Position numbers and translations under genes: made by a program. DNA of 33,628 bases. Source: Bacteroidales bacterium. Its GTDB lineage: Bacteria > Bacteroidota > Bacteroidia > Bacteroidales > UBA932. The notes beneath the pieces were generated by a model that made no database searches, had not been told where the DNA came from, and saw only the letters and a program-made list of their open reading frames with translations. This document shows positions 3,644-24,335 of this stretch, piece after piece (within the stretch, counting starts at the first letter, position 1; the number at the start of each line of letters is the position of its first letter). The stretch lies in contig JAFWPA010000041.1 in NCBI GenBank assembly GCA_017509685.1, forward strand, positions 1 through 33,628. Reading direction: 5' to 3'.

Positions 3644-7690
<4,047 letters not shown>

Positions 7691-13779: not shown

Positions 13780-15123
13780 GATGGTTTGCTGCGAGCAGAC
13801 CAGCAGATAGTTGGCCGATAGAGCGTCGATACGCACGCCGAAAATGTGGACGGGGCCGCCATCGGCCATGCCCAGCTTTTTGCGGAGCTGGTCGGAGGTG
13901 AGCGGGATGTTGCGGGCGGTGACATCGGCCCTGGGATAGCGCGTGCCGATGTCCTTGAGCGACCGCTTGTCCAGCGGGGCCGATTCCAGCACCCGGAACA
14001 CCTTGCCGAACGGCCTCAACGCCTCCGGAACTTCCTCACCCACATACAGATGCGTGTGCCGCCCCAGCTTCTCCAGCCCATACTGGCATGGCAGGTCAAA
14101 CGCCCCAGCCTTCAGCAGGGCCTTGCCCGGTTCAAACAGAATGGGCGTGATGCCGGCATCCTCCGTCCCCTCCCCGCCCGACAAGGCTTGCATCACATCC
14201 CCTGGACCTGGTCCAGCACCCAGAATTGGACCTGGTCCAGAACCTGCCTGGACCTGGTCCACCTGTAATGAAGAACCGTTCTCGTAAACAGTGACCCCAT
14301 ACGGGCCGTCGCAGTTCCTTTCCAGCAGGAGCAACAGTTCCTTGCATTCACCTTCGGCGGCCACTACGTGCACATCTTTTACACAGGCCAACTGCTTGCA
14401 AACCAGCGTGATGTCAGCCATGGGCGAAAGCTTGAGCAGCAGCCGCGGACACGCAGCCAGCAGTTCCGGCAGCAGCTGCAGCACATCCGGCTGACAGTCT
14501 TCCAGGCGGAACACCTTACGGCCATCGACAGAACGCCGCGCCGGATCCAGGAAGAGGACGTCCGGGCGGAAATCACCCAAAACAGATGCCACATTTCCAG
14601 GAACCACTTCCTTGCAACAGACCTGTACATTCGTAAGCCCCAACGCAGCAAAATTCTGCCGGGCTGCATCGGCCAGTTCCGGTCGCATCTCATTGTACAA
14701 CACCTCGGACGCCACCTGCGCAAAGGCCCAGGCATCCACCCCTAACCCGCCGGTAAGGTCCGCCACACAGAAGGAATCTCGCGTAACGAACTTTTGGCCC
14801 TTTTCTCGTAACGCCACGACCCGAGGATTTTCGCGTAACGAGTTTTGAGCCAATTCTTCGTTACGGGACGTTCCAACCGCAACCGCCGCCTTATACCGCG
14901 CCGTTTCGGCCGATGAGCACTGCTCGCCGGAAACCCGCAGCGGGTACCGCAAGGACGGCACCGCATACCACTCCGGCACTTTGGAACGCAGTTTCCGCCG
15001 CGCTTCCAACGTGGTGAGTGCCAGGTCGAAGTCCTCCACCTCGGCGGCATATCGGCCCCTGGCCAGCGCCAGGCGCCCCAGGTCTTCTCCGTCGTGAGCC
15101 AATATGAAATCCTTGAACTCCAT
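13777..15123 (-). CDS. Class I SAM-dependent methyltransferase, PG1098/THUMP-like type
   Basis: 448 residues from MEFKDF. The conserved core EQCSSAETARYKA (about 67-79) is followed by SAM-binding motif I (DLTGGLGVD, 122-130) and the catalytic-type motif FLDPARRS (191-198). A C-terminal THUMP-like part ends with EPGKALLKAGAF (about 331-342). The substrate is unknown, with RNA likely from the fold. Two segments look inserted and are made of short DNA repeats: about residues 83-118 (CGTAACGA repeats) and about 284-325 (three copies of a 13-bp palindrome, read as GPGP-type sequence). The open frame extends upstream to 15324, but that part translates the inverted-repeat element, so ATG 15123 is chosen. 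A -7 box lies 4 nt upstream. Confidence 0.8.
   Translation of the reverse strand: MEFKDFILAHDGEDLGRLALARGRYAAEVEDFDLALTTLEARRKLRSKVPEWYAVPSLRYPLRVSGEQCSSAETARYKAAVAVGTSRNEELAQNSLRENPRVVALREKGQKFVTRDSFCVADLTGGLGVDAWAFAQVASEVLYNEMRPELADAARQNFAALGLTNVQVCCKEVVPGNVASVLGDFRPDVLFLDPARRSVDGRKVFRLEDCQPDVLQLLPELLAACPRLLLKLSPMADITLVCKQLACVKDVHVVAAEGECKELLLLLERNCDGPYGVTVYENGSSLQVDQVQAGSGPGPILGAGPGPGDVMQALSGGEGTEDAGITPILFEPGKALLKAGAFDLPCQYGLEKLGRHTHLYVGEEVPEALRPFGKVFRVLESAPLDKRSLKDIGTRYPRADVTARNIPLTSDQLRKKLGMADGGPVHIFGVRIDALSANYLLVCSQQTI
14203..14261. repeat. Three copies of the palindrome TGGACCTGGTCCA inside a coding gene
   Basis: Identical 13-mers at 14203-14215, 14227-14239 and 14249-14261. Spacings of 24 and 22 nt place the copies in different reading frames: one reads VDQVQ and two read GPGP. 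They lie in a segment of the methyltransferase gene that appears to be inserted relative to the expected core. Confidence 0.8.
14779..14866. repeat. Cluster of CGTAACG repeats inside the methyltransferase gene
   Basis: TCGCGTAACGA occurs at 14779-14789 and 14831-14841, each followed by a similar TTTTG/GCC stretch. A third relative (TTCTCGTAACG) begins at about 14803, and an inverted one (TTCGTTACG) at about 14857. They encode the charged segment SRNEELAQNSLRENPRVVAL and the following residues. Confidence 0.55.
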
Positions 15124-15124
15124 A

Positions 15125-15155
15125 TTGCAAAAATACGGAATATTCTCTAAATTTG
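15125..15155 (+). promoter_or_regulatory. Promoter of pgm and the downstream reductase genes
   Basis: TTG (15125-15127), 20 nt, TAAATTTG (15148-15155), a full match to the Bacteroidota consensus. It lies back to back with the methyltransferase -7 box. The predicted leader of about 175 nt contains the 15171-15308 inverted-repeat element. Confidence 0.7.
15128..15135 (-). promoter_or_regulatory. -7 box upstream of the methyltransferase gene
   Basis: TATTTTTG on the minus strand, only 4 nt from the ATG at 15123. No -33 TTG is seen at the expected spacing. If used, the transcript would be leaderless. Confidence 0.45.
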
Positions 15156-15170
15156 TATGCTTCCGATTGA

Positions 15171-15308
15171 TGGCGGGCGCTGTATACGCCCAATCCGTGG
15201 CCACCCTCGGCCGCGTAAGAGGGAGGGGCCCAAAGCTGGCGCATAGCGCCGGCGCATGGGAGGGGCCGGAGCGAAGCGGAGGCAATTGGGCGTATACAGC
15301 GCCCGCCA
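15171..15308. repeat. 138-bp element with perfect 24-bp terminal inverted repeats
   Basis: The ends 15171-15194 and 15285-15308 are perfect reverse complements (TGGCGGGCGCTGTATACGCC at the left tip). Inside are two GGGAGGGGCC boxes (15221-15230 and 15258-15267) flanking the hairpin GGCGC-ATA-GCGCC (15238-15250), then GGAGCGAAGCG. The double-box core is shared with 152-230. No obvious target duplication flanks it. It is MITE-like and non-coding, and its translation creates false N-terminal extensions (AVYAQ in one direction, AYTAP in the other) for both flanking genes. Confidence 0.7.
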
Positions 15309-15337
15309 ACAATAGAAAAAACACTAAAACACTAGAT

Positions 15338-17002
15338 ATGAAAACCTACAAAGAAGTAGCGCAGAGCTGGCTGGACGGCAACTTTGACGCAGAGACCAAG
15401 GCAGAAGTAAAACACCTGATGGATACGGACCAGACCGCACTGGAGGATGCATTCTACCGCAACCTGGAGTTCGGTACGGGCGGCCTTCGCGGCGTGATGG
15501 GCGTGGGCACCAACCGCATGAACAAGTATACGGTGGGCATGGCCACGCAGGGCCTGGCCAACTACATCAAGGCCCATGTGAGCGGTCCCAAGAGCGTGTG
15601 CATCTCCCACGACAGCCGTAACAATTCCCGTCTGTTCGCGGAAATATCGGCCGAAGTCCTCTCCAACAACGGCATCAAGGTGTTCCTCTTCGAGGACCTG
15701 CGCCCTACTCCGGAGCTCAGTTACAGCATCCGCCTCAAGAAGGCAACGGCCGGCATCATGGTGACGGCCAGCCACAACCCCAAGGAATACAACGGTTACA
15801 AGGTCTTCTGGGAGGACGGCGGCCAGATTACCGCCCCCGTGGACAAGGACATCGTGGCCGAGGTGGGCAAGATTGAAGACCCCGCCCAGGTGCGCTTCCA
15901 GCCCGTTGCCGGTGAGGCAAAGGCTCCCATCGAGATCATGGGCGCCGATGTGGACGAATGCTACCTGCGGGACCAGTTGTCCCTGATGCTTTCCCCGGAA
16001 GCCGTGAAGAAGCACGCCAACCTCAAGATTGTCTATACCCCTCTGCACGGCTGCGGCGTAAGGCTGATGCCGGAGGCCCTGAAGCGCATCGGCTTCACCA
16101 ACATCATCCACGTGCCGGAGCAGGAAGTCCCGGACGGCAACTTCCCCACCGTGGCATCGCCCAACCCGGAAGAGCCCGCCGCCATGGCCATGGCCCTTGC
16201 CAAGGCCGATGAAACCGGCGCCGACCTAGTCCTGGCCACCGACCCCGACGCAGACCGCCTGGGCATCGCTGTCCGTAACGACGAAGGCAAGATGGTCCAG
16301 CTCACCGGCAACCAGACCTGGAGCTTCCTCACCTATTATATCCTGTGCCGCTGGAAAGAGCTGGGCAAGCTGAACGGCAAGCAGTACTGCGTGAAGACCA
16401 TCGTCACCAGCGAACTCATCGCCGCCATCTGCAAGAGCTTCAACGTCAAGTGCTACAACGTCCTCACCGGCTTCAAGTACATCGCCGAAGTCCAGAAACT
16501 GCAGGAAGGCAAGACCGAATTCATCTGCGGCGGCGAGGAAAGCTACGGCTTCAACCTGGGTAATTTCGTACGCGACAAGTGCGCACAGGTAGCCGGCTGC
16601 GCCGTGGCCGAATGCGCCGCCTGGGCCGCCGAACAGGGCCTCACCCTGTGGCAGCTGCTCCAGAAAGTGTACAAGGAATACGGCCTGTACGTAGAGAAGA
16701 TGGTGTACATCGTGCGCAAGGGCAAGAGCGGCGCCGAGGAAATCCAGCAAATTATGGCCGATTACCGCGCCAACCCGCCCCAGACCATCGCCGGCAGCCC
16801 GCTTGCCAAGGTCATCGACTATAACAAGCCCGAAGAGACCGGTCTTCCCAAGAGCAACGTGCTGCAGTTCTACAATCAAGCCGGCGACGTTGTCACCGTC
16901 CGTCCTTCCGGCACGGAGCCCAAGATCAAGTTCTACTTTGGCGCCAAAGGCGACGACGCCCCGCAGAAGATTGAACTTCTCAAGGCCCAGTTCATCAGCT
17001 AA
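15338..17002 (+). CDS. Phosphoglucomutase/phosphomannomutase
   Basis: Alpha-D-phosphohexomutase that interconverts hexose 1- and 6-phosphates. The 554-residue product contains FGTGGLRG (45-52) and the phosphoserine loop TASHNPKEYNGYK with Ser145. The metal loop is DPDADR (about 306-311), the sugar-binding loop GGEESYG and the phosphate-binding RPSGTEPK near the C-terminus. The length suits the PGM2-like bacterial subgroup, and preference for glucose versus mannose or pentose phosphates cannot be decided. The start MKTYKEV is chosen because upstream in-frame sequence is the inverted-repeat element. The downstream SDR gene starts 6 nt after its stop, so it probably heads a four-gene operon. Confidence 0.93.
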   Translation: MKTYKEVAQSWLDGNFDAETKAEVKHLMDTDQTALEDAFYRNLEFGTGGLRGVMGVGTNRMNKYTVGMATQGLANYIKAHVSGPKSVCISHDSRNNSRLFAEISAEVLSNNGIKVFLFEDLRPTPELSYSIRLKKATAGIMVTASHNPKEYNGYKVFWEDGGQITAPVDKDIVAEVGKIEDPAQVRFQPVAGEAKAPIEIMGADVDECYLRDQLSLMLSPEAVKKHANLKIVYTPLHGCGVRLMPEALKRIGFTNIIHVPEQEVPDGNFPTVASPNPEEPAAMAMALAKADETGADLVLATDPDADRLGIAVRNDEGKMVQLTGNQTWSFLTYYILCRWKELGKLNGKQYCVKTIVTSELIAAICKSFNVKCYNVLTGFKYIAEVQKLQEGKTEFICGGEESYGFNLGNFVRDKCAQVAGCAVAECAAWAAEQGLTLWQLLQKVYKEYGLYVEKMVYIVRKGKSGAEEIQQIMADYRANPPQTIAGSPLAKVIDYNKPEETGLPKSNVLQFYNQAGDVVTVRPSGTEPKIKFYFGAKGDDAPQKIELLKAQFIS

Positions 17003-17008
17003 CCGCTT

Positions 17009-17779
17009 GTGACGGCACTGATTACCGGTGGCAGTTCCGGCATGGGCCTCACGTATGCCCGTGCGCTGGCAGCCCAAGGCTATGACCTCCTCCTGGTGAG
17101 CAACCGGGAGGAGGAATTGCTTGCTGCACAGCAGGAACTCCAAACCGCCTTCCCCGTGCAGGTCACCGTCCACTTCCAGGACCTGGCCGCCCCCAATGCG
17201 GCCGATAAACTCTTTTCCTGGTGCACGCAGGAACTGGACATCCTGCCGGAAATCCTCATCAACAACGCCGGGATGTTCTTTTTCCAGGAACTGAGCCCGG
17301 AGAATCTGGAACGCGCCCAGGCGATGGTCAACCTGCATATAACCACCGTCACCCGCAGCTGCGTCCTCTTCGGGGACGCCATGAAAAAGCGCGGGTCAGG
17401 TTACATCCTCATCATGTCCTCCATGGCGGCCCGGCTTCCGGAGCCCGGCATCACGGTCTATTCGGCCACCAAGGCCTACCTCAAGAGCTTCGGCCGGTCC
17501 CTGTCCTTCGAGCTCAAGCCCCACGGCGTGGGCGTCACCACCGTATGCCCGGCAGCCATTGCCACGCCGCTATATCGGCTGGACGAAAAACTGATGCGCA
17601 TGGGCGTACGCATCCGGCTCATTCACACGCCCGAATGGTTGGTGAAAAGGGCGCTCCGGGCCCTGTTCCGCGGCCGTCGCGTCATTTGCCCGTCCTCGAT
17701 GAACGTGTGGCTTCCGTGCCTGCTGGCCCTGATTCCAGGCCCCATTATCGCCGCCCTGTGGGAAAAATTCAAACGATGA
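17009..17779 (+). CDS. Short-chain dehydrogenase/reductase, candidate hydroxysteroid dehydrogenase
   Basis: 256-residue classical SDR. The Rossmann cofactor motif is TGGSSGMG (6-13), NNAG lies at 85-88, the catalytic Ser is in IMSSMA (137-138) and the catalytic YxxxK is Tyr151 and Lys155. The C-terminal hydrophobic stretch (LPCLLALIPGPIIAALW) suggests membrane association, as in some 17-beta-HSD-type and ketoacyl reductases. The start is a GTG, and the codon three positions upstream in frame is the pgm stop. The stop overlaps the next gene as ATGA. With a steroid 5-alpha-reductase and an OYE reductase following, a role as 3- or 17-hydroxysteroid dehydrogenase is plausible but inferred. General carbonyl reduction is the alternative. 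Confidence 0.85.
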   Translation: MTALITGGSSGMGLTYARALAAQGYDLLLVSNREEELLAAQQELQTAFPVQVTVHFQDLAAPNAADKLFSWCTQELDILPEILINNAGMFFFQELSPENLERAQAMVNLHITTVTRSCVLFGDAMKKRGSGYILIMSSMAARLPEPGITVYSATKAYLKSFGRSLSFELKPHGVGVTTVCPAAIATPLYRLDEKLMRMGVRIRLIHTPEWLVKRALRALFRGRRVICPSSMNVWLPCLLALIPGPIIAALWEKFKR

Positions 17780-18543
17780 CCGAAGCCGCCTTTCATATCT
17801 TCCTGTGGGTGATGGCCGCCGTGGCCGTGGTCGTATTCCTGTCCCTGTACTTCGTGGACGCCGGGTATGGCAAATTCTACCGTTCTTCCTGGGGCCCTTC
17901 CATTGACAACCACCTGGGCTGGTTCCTGATGGAAGTCCCGGTGTTTATCATGATGATGCTCCTGTGGTGGTTCTCGGACCGGCGCTCAGACTTAGTGCGC
18001 GTAGTCTTCCTGCTGCTTTTCCAGATTCACTATTTCCACCGCTCGTTCATATTCCCCCGGCAGCTGCGCGGGCACAGCCGTATGCCTTGGGCCATCGTGG
18101 CCATGGGCGCGCTTTTCAATACCCTCAATGCCATTATGCAGGGAGGGTGGATTTTCCACATCTCCCCTATCGGCTATTATCCCGCTAACTGGCTCACCAG
18201 CCTGCCCTTCCTGGGAGGAACGGTACTGTTCTTCACCGGCATGTTCGTGAACATCCAGTCCGACTCCATCATCCGCAACCTGCGCCAGCCCGGAGATACG
18301 GCCCATTATCTGCCGCAGGGCGGCCTGTTCCGCTATGTGACCAGCGCCAACTATTTTGGCGAGTGGCTGGAGTGGACCGGTTTCGCCATTCTCACCTGGT
18401 CCTGGGCCGGCGCCGTGTTCTCCCTGTGGACGTTCGCCAACCTGTGTCCACGCGCCGCTCGCATCCATAAGAAGTATACAGAGGAATTCCCGGACCAGAT
18501 GGCCCGGCTGAAACCCAAACGATTCATTCCCTTTATCTATTAA
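17776..18543 (+). CDS. Steroid 5-alpha-reductase family membrane enzyme
   Basis: 255-residue multi-pass membrane protein with about six hydrophobic segments. It carries the family landmarks WGPSIDNHLGWFLMEVP (39-55), IHYFHRSFIFP (84-94), QSDSIIRNLR and PQGGLFRYVTSANYFGEW (180-197). These match eukaryotic SRD5A enzymes closely. The Glu in LMEVP (Glu53) and Tyr86 in HYFHR appear to correspond to the catalytic Glu/Tyr pair of human SRD5A2. The expected reaction is NADPH-dependent reduction of a 3-oxo-delta-4 steroid to the 5-alpha product. It overlaps the SDR gene by 4 nt and ends 1 nt before the OYE gene, so the three form one unit. The family call is strong, the actual substrate is inferred. 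Confidence 0.9.
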   Translation: MTEAAFHIFLWVMAAVAVVVFLSLYFVDAGYGKFYRSSWGPSIDNHLGWFLMEVPVFIMMMLLWWFSDRRSDLVRVVFLLLFQIHYFHRSFIFPRQLRGHSRMPWAIVAMGALFNTLNAIMQGGWIFHISPIGYYPANWLTSLPFLGGTVLFFTGMFVNIQSDSIIRNLRQPGDTAHYLPQGGLFRYVTSANYFGEWLEWTGFAILTWSWAGAVFSLWTFANLCPRAARIHKKYTEEFPDQMARLKPKRFIPFIY

Positions 18544-18544
18544 T

Positions 18545-19777
18545 ATGGAATCTCCCGTATTCACGCCCGTCCAGATTGGGCCTGTCACGCTGCGCAACCG
18601 CATTATCCGGTCCGCCGCCTTCGAGAATATGGCCTACGGCAACGCGCCCTCGCGGGACCTCTACGGCTACCATGTGGCGGTGGCCCGCGGCGGCGTGGGG
18701 ATGACCACGCTGGCCTATGCGTCCGTGAACCGCAGCGGCCTCTCCTTCGACGGCCAGCTGTGGATGCGGGAAGAGATTGTGCCGGGGCTCAAACGCATCA
18801 CCGACGCCGTCCACGCCCAGGGGGCCAAATGCTCCATCCAGCTGGGCCACTGCGGCAATATGACTCATCGCGCCACCTGCGGCTGCATGCCGGTAGGCGC
18901 TTCCAGCGGCTTTAACCTCTATTCCCCCACCTTCGTACGGGGGCTCAAGATTGCAGAGATTGACGCCCTGGTCCAGGACTTCGGCCACGCCGTGGATCTG
19001 GCCCGCGAGGCCGGTTTCGACTGTGTGGAAATTCACGCCGGGCACGGCTACCTCATCAGCCAGTTCCTCTCGCCGTACACCAACCATCGGCACGACGAAT
19101 ACGGCGGTTCCCTGGAGAACCGTATGCGCTTGATGCAGCGCGTCATCCGCTGCGTGCTGGAGCACGCCGGGGCCGATATGGGCGTCATCGTCAAAATGAA
19201 CATGCACGACGGTTTCCGCCGCGGAATGCAGCGCCAGGAATGCCTGGAAGTGGCCCGTGAACTGGAGCGGCTGGGGGTGCACGCCCTGGTCCTATCGGCC
19301 GGCTTCGTAAGCAAGGCGCCCATGGAAGTGATGCGCGGGGCCATGCCGCTGAAAACCATGGCGCATTATATGGACATGCGCAAGTTCTGGTGGCTCAAGG
19401 CGCTGGTCCGTCTCTTTGGCCGATGGATGATTCCCACCGTCCCCTACCGCGAGGGCTACTTCCTGGAAGACGCCCTGCAGTTCCGTGAGGCGGTGAAACT
19501 GCCGCTCATCTATGTGGGAGGCCTCACCTCGCTGGCCAAGATGGAAGAGGTGCTGGGCGCCGGCTTCCAGGGCCTGCAAATGGCCCGGGCGCTGGTACGG
19601 GATACGGATTTCGTGAACAAACTTCGCACGGGGCAACAGACCGCCAGCCCCTGCGGCCATTCCAACTACTGTATTGGCCGTATGTACACGCTGGAGATGA
19701 AGTGCAACCGCTGCGTAGCGAACCTCCCCGCCTCCTTACAGCGGGAGGTGGAGAAGGCCGAAAACCGTTGGAAATAA
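18545..19777 (+). CDS. Old Yellow Enzyme-family NADH:flavin oxidoreductase, candidate 5-beta-reductase
   Basis: 410-residue FMN-dependent ene-reductase of the 2,4-dienoyl-CoA reductase/OYE group. The substrate-binding His pair is in EIHAGHGYL (His164, His167). The signature QFLSPYTNHRHDEYGGSLEN runs from about 173 to 192. A phosphate/FMN-binding YVGG lies late in the barrel. The C-terminus has four Cys (370, 376, 387, 390) where iron-sulfur relatives carry a cluster, but the spacing is unusual and there is no second FAD/NAD domain. It follows the 5-alpha-reductase gene by 1 nt. In gut Bacteroidota, OYE-type proteins in such clusters act as steroid 5-beta-reductases, so that role is inferred here. 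The stop is 1 nt from the converging lpxB stop. Confidence 0.87.
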   Translation: MESPVFTPVQIGPVTLRNRIIRSAAFENMAYGNAPSRDLYGYHVAVARGGVGMTTLAYASVNRSGLSFDGQLWMREEIVPGLKRITDAVHAQGAKCSIQLGHCGNMTHRATCGCMPVGASSGFNLYSPTFVRGLKIAEIDALVQDFGHAVDLAREAGFDCVEIHAGHGYLISQFLSPYTNHRHDEYGGSLENRMRLMQRVIRCVLEHAGADMGVIVKMNMHDGFRRGMQRQECLEVARELERLGVHALVLSAGFVSKAPMEVMRGAMPLKTMAHYMDMRKFWWLKALVRLFGRWMIPTVPYREGYFLEDALQFREAVKLPLIYVGGLTSLAKMEEVLGAGFQGLQMARALVRDTDFVNKLRTGQQTASPCGHSNYCIGRMYTLEMKCNRCVANLPASLQREVEKAENRWK

Positions 19778-19778
19778 G

Positions 19779-20936
19779 TTAGCCTTTCAAATCTTTGATC
19801 ATGGCCGATGCCACCGCGCGGGAAGCCCCTGCGCCGCCCAGCAGCGTGCGGATTTCGGCAAAATCGGCCTGCATGCGGAAGCGGTAGGCCTCGTCCTGCA
19901 CAAGACGCTCCAACTCTTCCAGGAGATTGGGGACGGTGAAGCGTTCCTGCAGCAGTTCCCGGAAGGAATAACGGTCCAGGATGAGGTTGCCCAGGGAGAC
20001 GTATTTTACCTTGATGATGCGCCGGGCGATGGCGGCGGTGATAGGATTCATCCGATAGCCAACGACCTGGGGCGTGCCGATGAGCGCCGCCTCCAGAGAG
20101 GCCGTCCCGGAATTGATGACGGCGGCCCGTGCGTGGCGCAAGGCGGCGTAGGTTTCCCCGAAGACCACCTTCACGTAGTCCCCGCGTCCGCCCAGGTACC
20201 GCTCATAATCCTTCATCGTCCGGGAAGGGGCGGCCGCCACCACAAAGACATCGTCGGGATGGGAAGCGTGCCAGGCATCGGCCATCTTCATGAAGACGGG
20301 CATCATGGTGCCGATTTCCATGCTGCGCGACCCTGCCAGCAGGGAGATGAGGGTTCTGTCCGGAAGTCCGGTACGCTTTAGGAAATCCTCCCGGGTCTCC
20401 CGAAGGGCGGGGCTCTCTTCAATGGCGTCGATGAGCGGATTGCCCGCATAGACATAGGGCACTCCCTGGCGTTGGAAGTACTCCTGCTCGAAGGGGAATA
20501 CAATGAAAAGCTTGTCCACCCAGGCCTTCAGCTTCTTCACACGGCCTTCACGAGTGCCCCAGACTTTGGGAGCAATATAATAGTACACCTTGAAACCGGC
20601 GTTGTGGGCGAATTCGGCCACCTTCAGGTTGAAGCCGGGATAGTCGATGAGAACGACCACGTCCGGTTTCCAGGCGGTAATGTCCTTCTTGCATTTATCC
20701 ATCCGCTTCAGCAGGGACGGGCCCTTGCGTATGACTTCCACCAGCCCCATGACGGCGCCGGCGCGGTAGTCTTCCACCAGGCCCTCCCCCTTCTCGTTGG
20801 CCTTATACACGGCGTCCATCAACGGTCCGCCCCAAAAGCGTATCTGCGCCTGGGGGTCTTCCAGATAGAGTCCTTTCATCAAATTGCTTCCGTGCAGGTC
20901 ACCGGAGGCTTCGCCGGCAATAATGTAGTATTTCAT
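19779..20936 (-). CDS. lpxB: Lipid-A-disaccharide synthase
   Basis: Glycosyltransferase (GT19) that joins UDP-2,3-diacylglucosamine and lipid X to form the lipid A disaccharide at the inner face of the cytoplasmic membrane. The 385-residue product has GEASGDLHGSNL (8-19). Other landmarks are YIAPKVWGTREGRVK, LAGSRSMEIG and the nucleotide-binding region with NSGTASLEAALIGTP. The length is typical. ATG 20936 is chosen over the longer frame to 20981 because the family begins directly with the Rossmann strand YYIIAGE. A -7 box (TAAATTTG, 20942-20949) lies 5 nt upstream. surE, often adjacent in Bacteroidota, is here separated from it by an oppositely oriented gene. Confidence 0.95.
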   Translation of the reverse strand: MKYYIIAGEASGDLHGSNLMKGLYLEDPQAQIRFWGGPLMDAVYKANEKGEGLVEDYRAGAVMGLVEVIRKGPSLLKRMDKCKKDITAWKPDVVVLIDYPGFNLKVAEFAHNAGFKVYYYIAPKVWGTREGRVKKLKAWVDKLFIVFPFEQEYFQRQGVPYVYAGNPLIDAIEESPALRETREDFLKRTGLPDRTLISLLAGSRSMEIGTMMPVFMKMADAWHASHPDDVFVVAAAPSRTMKDYERYLGGRGDYVKVVFGETYAALRHARAAVINSGTASLEAALIGTPQVVGYRMNPITAAIARRIIKVKYVSLGNLILDRYSFRELLQERFTVPNLLEELERLVQDEAYRFRMQADFAEIRTLLGGAGASRAVASAMIKDLKG

Positions 20937-23069: not shown

Positions 23070-24335
23070 TTATTGTTCCTTAAATATCTCCTTGAGAAAC
23101 TCTTCGAGCATCTGTGCGACGTTCTCTTCGTTCAGCAGCCAGAAATCGAAGCCATATTTATTGATGAGTGTGTCGAAAATGATCAGGGCAAAATCAATGG
23201 CGCCGTTTTCGTGCGCAGGCATATCTTCCATCCACGTGATGTCCCCGACGACGGTTTCCGTGATGTCTTCCTTGCTCAGGCCGAGCGTATTCACCAGATA
23301 ATCATACAGATTGACCTGGTTAACCGGCGGTACGGTGATGTCCTTCTTGTGGTGGATGAGGGCGATACGGGCACCCTTGGCGGGCCGCCAGGTTTTGGCC
23401 AGGTTCTCTTTTTCAAGGGCTTGCATCAGTTTCTGGGAAACCTCAGATTTCATATCCTGAATTTCCGTGCTGGCGAAGTTGGAAAAACTCAGGGAGCCAA
23501 TCATCTTATCAATTTCCTGCTGAGTGTAATTCTTGCTCAGGAGCCAGTCGTCTGCGTGTGCAAGGGCGTCACCCCTTAACAGCCTGTCGCGGGAATAACC
23601 CAGTTGGTAGTACTCGTTGAAGGCCAGCATAACACTGATAATGGTGGAAGGCATGCCGGAGATGTCCGTCTGGGTCATCTCTCTGTACGTAGCAGGCATA
23701 TCGTACGGGCCGCCGCCGGCAAAGGAATGGGTGATTTTGATGTCCGGATACTTTTCTGCCACCAACTTCTCTACAGCCACGGTTGTCTGGCCACCCTGGG
23801 AGTAGCCCAGATTGAATAGGTAGTTTTTGCTCTCATCCATCGAAATATTGATGCTGGGGAAGAGCTCTCGGGCGGCGAGGAGGCAGTCAATGCTGGCCTG
23901 TGCATTGACAGAGCCCACACAGTATGCCTGGTTTTTGTCTTCCGTGCACCCAAAGCCGTAATAGTCGGCCGAAACTCCGACCATATGGCTGCCCACCACG
24001 AACTTCTGAATCATAAGGTCTCCCTTGGAGGGGCACTGGTCCTTACGATATACGGTGAAATGATTGACAAGCACCACGCCCACGGCCGGCGCCTTTCCAT
24101 CCTTGATTTCGTCGCCCACGGTAATGGCACCGGAAAGGGTGACAGGATTGCCGAACGGGTCGGTGGAAGGGTATTCGATATTATAGGCGGTCATCTTGTC
24201 CTCGGGGTAATACTTGGTTCCCGTAATCTTTGCGGCAGGCAACTTCTGGCCGCTGTCGTCCTTGTTACAGGAGACAAGGCCCAGGGTCAAAACGGTACCG
24301 AGCAGCGCGGAGAGAAGGTAAAAAGCTTTTTTCAT
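23070..24335 (-). CDS. Lipoprotein alpha/beta hydrolase, secretory-lipase-like
   Basis: 421 residues with a lipoprotein signal: hydrophobic stretch, then lipobox LVSC with Cys23. It is therefore predicted to be anchored to a membrane outside the cytoplasm. The nucleophile elbow is GYSQGG with Ser179. A likely acid residue lies in HHKKDITVPP and a His in EDMPAHENG. The arrangement resembles secreted lipases and esterases of the alpha/beta-hydrolase superfamily; the substrate is unknown. Its base composition looks more AT-rich than the genes around it, and it sits directly 3' of a tRNA gene, so recent acquisition is possible. It ends at a terminator shared with the tRNA. Confidence 0.78.
   Translation of the reverse strand: MKKAFYLLSALLGTVLTLGLVSCNKDDSGQKLPAAKITGTKYYPEDKMTAYNIEYPSTDPFGNPVTLSGAITVGDEIKDGKAPAVGVVLVNHFTVYRKDQCPSKGDLMIQKFVVGSHMVGVSADYYGFGCTEDKNQAYCVGSVNAQASIDCLLAARELFPSINISMDESKNYLFNLGYSQGGQTTVAVEKLVAEKYPDIKITHSFAGGGPYDMPATYREMTQTDISGMPSTIISVMLAFNEYYQLGYSRDRLLRGDALAHADDWLLSKNYTQQEIDKMIGSLSFSNFASTEIQDMKSEVSQKLMQALEKENLAKTWRPAKGARIALIHHKKDITVPPVNQVNLYDYLVNTLGLSKEDITETVVGDITWMEDMPAHENGAIDFALIIFDTLINKYGFDFWLLNEENVAQMLEEFLKEIFKEQ

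Follow-up and report, generated by a model that had tools for sequence, protein, structure and literature searches.

The 33,628-nt contig JAFWPA010000041.1 of a Bacteroidales bacterium (assembly GCA_017509685.1, 79% complete), which is called the window throughout, contains three closely spaced genes on the forward strand. The first gene, SDR1 (17009-17779), starts with GTG and encodes a classical short-chain dehydrogenase/reductase (SDR) of 256 aa (Pfam adh_short, 3e-38). The second gene, 5AR (17776-18543), encodes an integral-membrane protein of 255 aa that is homologous to the 3-oxo-delta4-steroid 5-alpha-reductases of the SRD5A family (PF02544, 8e-40), and the third gene, OYE (18545-19777), encodes a single-domain FMN ene-reductase of 410 aa (Oxidored_FMN PF00724, 3e-55) of the old yellow enzyme (OYE) type. 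SDR1 and 5AR overlap by four nucleotides and share an ATGA, and a gap of one nucleotide separates 5AR and OYE. The original prediction, made from the sequence alone, had described a unit of three genes joined by exactly these junctions and had named their families; the open reading frame coordinates bore out the former, and the Pfam matches the latter. The Ser-Tyr-Lys triad that it had described as intact was also found, as S138, Y151, and K155 were invariant in all 22 rows of the SDR1 alignment, the window included (one of 23 rows was excluded as weak or short). Judged from the sequences, the operon is likely to function in steroid A-ring reduction.

The 5AR is a relative of steroid 5-alpha-reductases

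The 5AR scored 136.7 bits with PF02544, for which the curated cut-off is 22.6. Its best sequence matches in the Protein Data Bank (PDB) were PbSRD5A (7c83, 1e-50) and human SRD5A2 (7bw1, 5e-39), with identities of 38.9% over 239 aligned residues and 35.9% over 234 aligned residues, respectively, followed by a TECR (22of, 3e-7). The AlphaFold model of the protein (pLDDT 88.8) was used for a fold search, in which these two SRD5A structures were the only PDB matches at E<=0.001 (7c83, TM 0.88; 7bw1, TM 0.81), while the fold matches to ICMT and 4quv were below significance. The predicted homology to the eukaryotic SRD5A enzymes is therefore real, and the 5AR is genuinely related to the human enzyme responsible for dihydrotestosterone synthesis. 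A grouping with fatty-acyl or isoprenoid reductases, named as counterevidence in the original prediction, was not found by similarity and fold, the SRD5As being far ahead of TECR; such an identity is ruled out by sequence, fold, and catalytic residues.

An alignment and a tree were generated from 160 of 169 5AR proteins and the two PDB references (162 rows); eight named loci that repeated fetched genomes and one protein of less than 220 aa were left out. The references sit on long branches, and their placement is trusted only as lying outside the 155-row Bacteroidales set. E53 and Y86 of the window protein line up with human E57 and Y91, residues that are given as essential for human SRD5A2 in excerpts of two studies (PMC7815742; PMC7591894). 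The equivalents of human E57, Y91, D164, R171, and N193 were present in 160/160 Bacteroidota 5ARs, and those of E197, R227, and Y235 in 159/160. With H231 as the exception, the NADPH residues N160, D164, R171, N193, E197, R227, and Y235 were kept in all 41 aligned rows, and the human pocket residues W53, E57, Y91, and F118 were retained in 40-41 of them. Thus, the window protein shares with PbSRD5A and human SRD5A2 the PF02544 domain, the fold, the catalytic Glu and Tyr, and most NADPH residues. Differences were noted at three positions, one of which corresponds to human Arg114 and is Met in the window and Leu in PbSRD5A; the other two are considered below.

The OYE has family-typical and unusual features

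The AlphaFold model of the OYE had a pLDDT of 83.8, and its fold matches were to OYEs. BaiCD and the clostridial steroid 5-beta-reductases are, as we assume, members of the same family. Like BaiCD (covered in excerpts of PMC12238238), the window OYE contains an OYE-family ene-reductase domain. However, its score with the BaiCD model NF041087 (191.8 bits) is far below the cut-off of 825, and its 410 aa compare with 642 model positions. The score with the NCBIfam mycofactocin OYE model (206 bits) was also below the cut-off, and an identity as BaiCD or as a bilirubin reductase was rejected because the scores were under the model cut-offs. Further differences from BaiCD are three conserved Cys residues, an insertion relative to solved OYEs, and the lack of bai neighbours, with no bai product among the six neighbouring proteins scanned.

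The insertion comprises about 38 aa (residues 256-303, relative to 7o0t and YqjM) and carries a conserved W-L(-K) helix, which might contact the membrane or the 5AR embedded in it. The helix did not qualify as a strong amphipathic element, as its moment ranked 25th among 393 segments of the protein and was not exceptional. At the C-terminus, three near-invariant Cys residues (C370-x5-C376-x10-C387) occupy the site at which larger OYEs presumably have a four-Cys Fe-S motif. The OYE is presumed to be the delta4-3-ketosteroid 5-beta-reductase/dehydrogenase partner of the 5AR.

The 5AR-OYE pair is conserved, while the SDR varies

Of 395 sampled Bacteroidota genomes, eight, including that of the window, had a 5AR (E<=1e-10). 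A contig scan yielded 16 named loci with a 5AR, of which nine were close to the window (66-85% identity) and seven were farther (53-63%). Among 300 congeneric genomes a 5AR was detected in 142, and gene order was examined in 141 of these, the 54-aa fragment of G564 being excluded. Altogether, gene orders were assigned by homology in 161 distinct loci (of 169; eight named repeats of fetched genomes were removed). In 149 of the 161 loci, OYE was the next downstream gene after 5AR; the other 12 include all five loci from outside the order, for which the flank was 1.5 kb. SDR1 was linked to 5AR in 63 loci, downstream in 55 and upstream in eight; it was outside the chain in 98, in some of which the contig or stretch ends first. 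Among the flanks covered, the phosphoglucomutase (PGM) gene that precedes the operon in the window has a counterpart next to the cassette in L002 and L003/L109 alone, and the LpxB gene that follows it has one in L002 alone; the contig of L003 is too short to show LpxB. Because these flanks are common to few loci, the 5AR-OYE cassette holds together while its neighbours change. These results showed that 5AR-OYE is a real conserved unit and not a chance arrangement.

In many loci, SDR1 and/or a second SDR, SDR2, are chained to 5AR-OYE. The two SDRs share about 24-27% identity across the greater part of their length and represent two distinct families, which occupy the same dehydrogenase slot. 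The fullest sets hold both in the order 5AR-OYE-SDR1-(PCMD)-SDR2, PCMD (PF13201) being an additional protein whose N-terminus resembles a signal sequence. The window locus contains only SDR1, which is placed upstream of 5AR, and the closest SDR2-like protein elsewhere in the 79%-complete window genome was 32% identical (E 2.8e-13). Between SDR1 and 5AR, a whole PCMD gene is present in the sister locus L002, a short remnant in L003 (1480-1640), and none in the window, so that L003 is an intermediate between L002 and the window.

The seven farther named loci belong to Barnesiella, to a Muribaculaceae titled with the word 'Lapin', and to five Bacteroides. Two of the latter (L013 and L015) have the order 5AR-OYE-SDR2, and about 1.4 kb separates 5AR from the OYE-SDR2 pair of L014. 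No OYE was found within the 5 kb examined downstream of 5AR in L016, and L012 (labelled Bacteroides sp.) has the order 5AR-OYE-SDR1. In L015, from Bacteroides faecichinchillae, the OYE match is split into two pieces (5899-7105), which may reflect a disrupted reading frame or a sequence error. Another genome, G037, contains two 5AR genes (L059 and L063), neither of which is beside an OYE.

Comparison with clusters of gut Bacteroidota

Clusters of a 5-beta-reductase (5BR), a 5AR, and a 3-beta-hydroxysteroid dehydrogenase (3-beta-HSDH) in gut Bacteroidota were reportedly described by Li et al. 2021 and Sato et al. 2021, and we take their 5BR to be an OYE-family protein. Excerpts of PMC12697870 describe such clusters in gut Bacteroidetes, together with a route from 3-oxolithocholic acid (3-oxoLCA) to isoallolithocholic acid (isoalloLCA) via the three enzymes, and the relevant parts of two reviews list the enzymes by taxon (PMC12789469, PMC12692668). 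The window resembles these clusters in having an SRD5A-type 5AR beside an OYE, plus an SDR. The proposed kinship was supported for two of the three proteins, as the 5AR is 53-54% and the OYE 63% identical to those of the named Bacteroides loci L013 and L014, a comparison that lies outside the assayed proteins of P. merdae, B. dorei, and Odoribacter. In contrast, the claim of the same composition was not supported as worded: in L013-L015 the SDR beside OYE is SDR2, which is about 24% identical to SDR1 of the window. In addition, the window differs from the gut clusters in the upstream position of SDR1, and its lineage lacks a strong match to the bile salt hydrolase (BSH) family.

Annotated 3-oxo-5-alpha-steroid 4-dehydrogenases in most Bacteroidetes isolates from the chicken caecum were noted in 2018 (excerpts of PMC6069880). 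Literature searches directed at a link to the rumen yielded no paper on such a cluster, and the excerpts of PMC6069880 and PMC13008668 did not concern one. Apparently new are the second SDR family with the rearranged gene order, the Met-for-Gln exchange across the aligned Bacteroidota, and the split of 5ARs in one genus into BSH-linked and BSH-free lineages; searches of mostly non-subscription literature yielded none of the three, the first two of which were not specifically searched for.

BSH genes accompany a different 5AR clade

A match to PF02275 (BSH/CBAH family) with E<=1e-20 was counted as a strong BSH-family match. It was found in 71 of the 300 congeners and was nearly whole in 69, the partial ones being those of G679, which also has an internal stop, and G689. 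The frequency varied with the identity of the 5AR to that of the window: 0/52 at 65% or more, 4/7 at 60-64%, 6/14 at 54-59%, and 52/69 below 54%, compared with 9/158 in congeners without a 5AR. The group of 52 includes the window genome and two genomes with partial 5AR matches (G564, 54 aa; G677, 167 aa). A comparison of this group with the other 5AR genomes gave a Fisher p of 2e-18 (a naive value), but the difference between this group and the congeners without a 5AR was not significant (p 0.12).

Most rows of the genus group into three clades in the 5AR tree. The clade of the window, type I, has 58 rows, four of them BSH-bearing, and contains an inner set of 38 rows that is BSH-free. Type II comprises 66 rows, of which 58 are from genomes with BSH, and its 5AR-OYE pairs are chained to no SDR. 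The 15 rows of type III are BSH-free and mostly show the order 5AR-OYE-SDR1. L002 carries no BSH label in the tree, its genome having a weak partial match only. What stands out is an enrichment of BSH in type II rather than a special depletion in type I. The BSH label requires nine changes on the gene tree, compared with a mean of 49.6 after shuffling. A test of SDR content against BSH with independent pairs had no power (6 and 4 pairs, p 1); rows whose stretch was too short to reveal an SDR, 12 of the 140 labelled ones from the genus, were excluded from this test. Because of the nine changes and the powerless paired test, the BSH pattern is read at the level of clades only. Examples of type II-like loci with 5AR-OYE, no SDR, and a strong BSH-family match are L061, L181, and L182. 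The type II 5AR-OYE lineage is the better bile-acid candidate in the genus.

The nine closest named relatives are five metagenome-assembled genomes (MAGs) with RUG names (RUG253, RUG12515, RUG14078, RUG13253, and RUG13005), Goat_Omasum, Yak_Rumen, Red_deer_4, which we assume to be a rumen sample, and one of unknown source. Going by titles or naming scheme, eight of the nine are thus MAGs from the forestomach, which lies upstream of the entry of bile. The RUG names were taken to denote the rumen, and the term 'rumen uncultured genome' occurs in PMC5830445. A strong BSH-family match was present in none of the nine (four had weak partial matches), compared with six of the seven other named genomes. 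As the named close relatives are mostly from the rumen, bile acids may not be the usual substrate.

Function of the operon and alternative explanations

We assign a probability of about two in three (0.66) to the interpretation that SDR1, 5AR, and OYE form an operon of three genes for steroid A-ring reduction in a rumen-type Bacteroidales. It is directly supported by the gene identities, the folds of 5AR and OYE in the predicted models, the catalytic residues, the operon structure, and the conserved 5AR-OYE coupling; the steroid substrate, the stereochemistry of the OYE, and the position and face of SDR action are what we infer. The membrane-bound 5AR would accept a 3-oxo-delta4 steroid, its E53 and Y86 would polarise the C3 carbonyl, and NADPH would deliver a hydride to C5 from the alpha face, a role proposed because of the homology and the retained residues. 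The FMN-containing OYE would also act on this delta4 bond, but prefer the other face, and yield a 5-beta product, or, in reverse, would open 5-beta-3-oxo steroids to the delta4 form; this role is suggested by the pairing with 5AR and by the route from 3-oxoLCA to isoalloLCA in the excerpts of PMC12697870. Between them, the two enzymes would be able to establish the A/B ring junction or to invert it. SDR1 is presumed to be a 3-oxo/3-hydroxysteroid dehydrogenase that would interconvert the C3 ketone and alcohol, the argument being its family membership.

Several points weigh against this interpretation. The Gln of the QEY motif, present in both solved structures (Gln56), is replaced by Met in 160/160 Bacteroidota 5ARs, including five loci from outside the order (L079-L083) that are 35-41% identical to the window. 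According to excerpts of PMC7815742, QEY is highly conserved among the enzymes studied, Q56A/L abolishes the activity of human SRD5A2, and H231A is the sole human variant without a significant drop in activity. At the position of His231, the window protein has Ile, and His occurs there in just 4/160. Furthermore, a 5AR was undetected in 158 of the 300 congeners, many of which are incomplete MAGs, and its function would therefore be dispensable. Lastly, OYEs and SDRs form such broad families that neither substrate nor stereochemistry can be deduced from the sequence. Either the QEY motif is narrower than thought, or the Bacteroidota enzymes differ. We regard the 5AR as a lineage variant of SRD5A, for which homology is claimed and 5-alpha-reductase activity is likely, but not proven.

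The natural substrates of an A-ring reduction operon in this lineage are likely to be plant- or host-derived neutral steroids (phytosterol stenones or progestin-like compounds) rather than bile acids, because the named close relatives are mostly from sites ahead of bile entry and are devoid of strong BSH-family matches. A more specific version is offered tentatively and at less than even odds: a bile-independent forestomach operon, in which an SRD5A with MEY and an OYE whose helix insertion may reach the membrane would work as a paired alpha/beta A-ring reductase system and invert the ring junction of plant sterol-derived or other neutral steroids. If this were true, rumen Bacteroidales would be a source of 5-alpha and 5-beta steroids before bile is encountered. 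The 5AR-OYE unit splits within one genus into a BSH-linked lineage and BSH-free lineages, and the latter raise a testable question about rumen steroid chemistry ahead of bile.

The original prediction favoured a bile-acid operon, in which 3-oxo-delta4 or 5-beta bile acids would be converted to allo or isoallo forms and SDR1 would be the 3-beta-HSDH. Clusters with the same three functions have been published (excerpts of PMC12697870), and the use of bile acids is plausible for the family, as the divergent 5AR-OYE pairs of congeners go with BSH (52/69, compared with 9/158 without a 5AR). A bacterium that lacks a BSH could still use free bile acids, and the window group is not significantly poorer in BSH than the congeners without a 5AR, which seldom have one either. 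However, a strong BSH-family match is missing from the window genome (79% complete) and from the 51 other congeners whose 5AR resembles its own, the same is true for the nine closest named MAGs, and, among these, Goat_Omasum and Yak_Rumen by title and the five RUG genomes by name come from upstream of bile entry. For the window lineage, we consider a bile-acid substrate unlikely, and the case cautions against labelling every such cluster a bile-acid operon.

Still less probable is that the SRD5A fold here serves a non-steroid enone, e.g. an isoprenoid, a plant terpenoid, a saponin aglycone, or a quinone. The lineage-wide exchange of Gln to Met in the active-site motif would fit such a use, the fold relative TECR reduces very-long-chain enoyl-CoA, and the rumen diet is rich in plants. 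Against this stand the retained human pocket residues and the fact that the top fold and sequence matches are the two steroid enzymes. In addition, Bacteroidota 5ARs are given as steroid enzymes in the excerpted review table, the tested sequences of which lie outside our comparison. Ordinary proximity of three proteins that act separately, for which one could cite the 98 loci with SDR1 outside the chain, is highly improbable given the 5AR-OYE adjacency across clades with differing neighbours and the tight junctions in the window.

Neighbourhood of the operon

The upstream PGM gene ends at 17002, and the GTG start of SDR1 lies 6 nt past its stop codon. A consensus promoter scan revealed no promoter-like site between PGM and SDR1, and therefore co-transcription of the operon with PGM is possible. 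In a promoter and terminator scan of positions 14900-20100, signals were at chance level. Downstream, LpxB is encoded on the opposite strand and points towards the operon. A secretory lipase-like protein (PF03583, 2.4e-10), unlinked to the operon, is encoded at 23070-24335 on the minus strand. The divergent region between a THUMP-like (PF18096) gene and PGM contains an inverted repeat (15152-15194 and 15285-15327) with 43-nt arms that are 84% complementary and spaced by 90 nt, which is possibly a regulatory element or an element similar to miniature inverted-repeat transposable elements.

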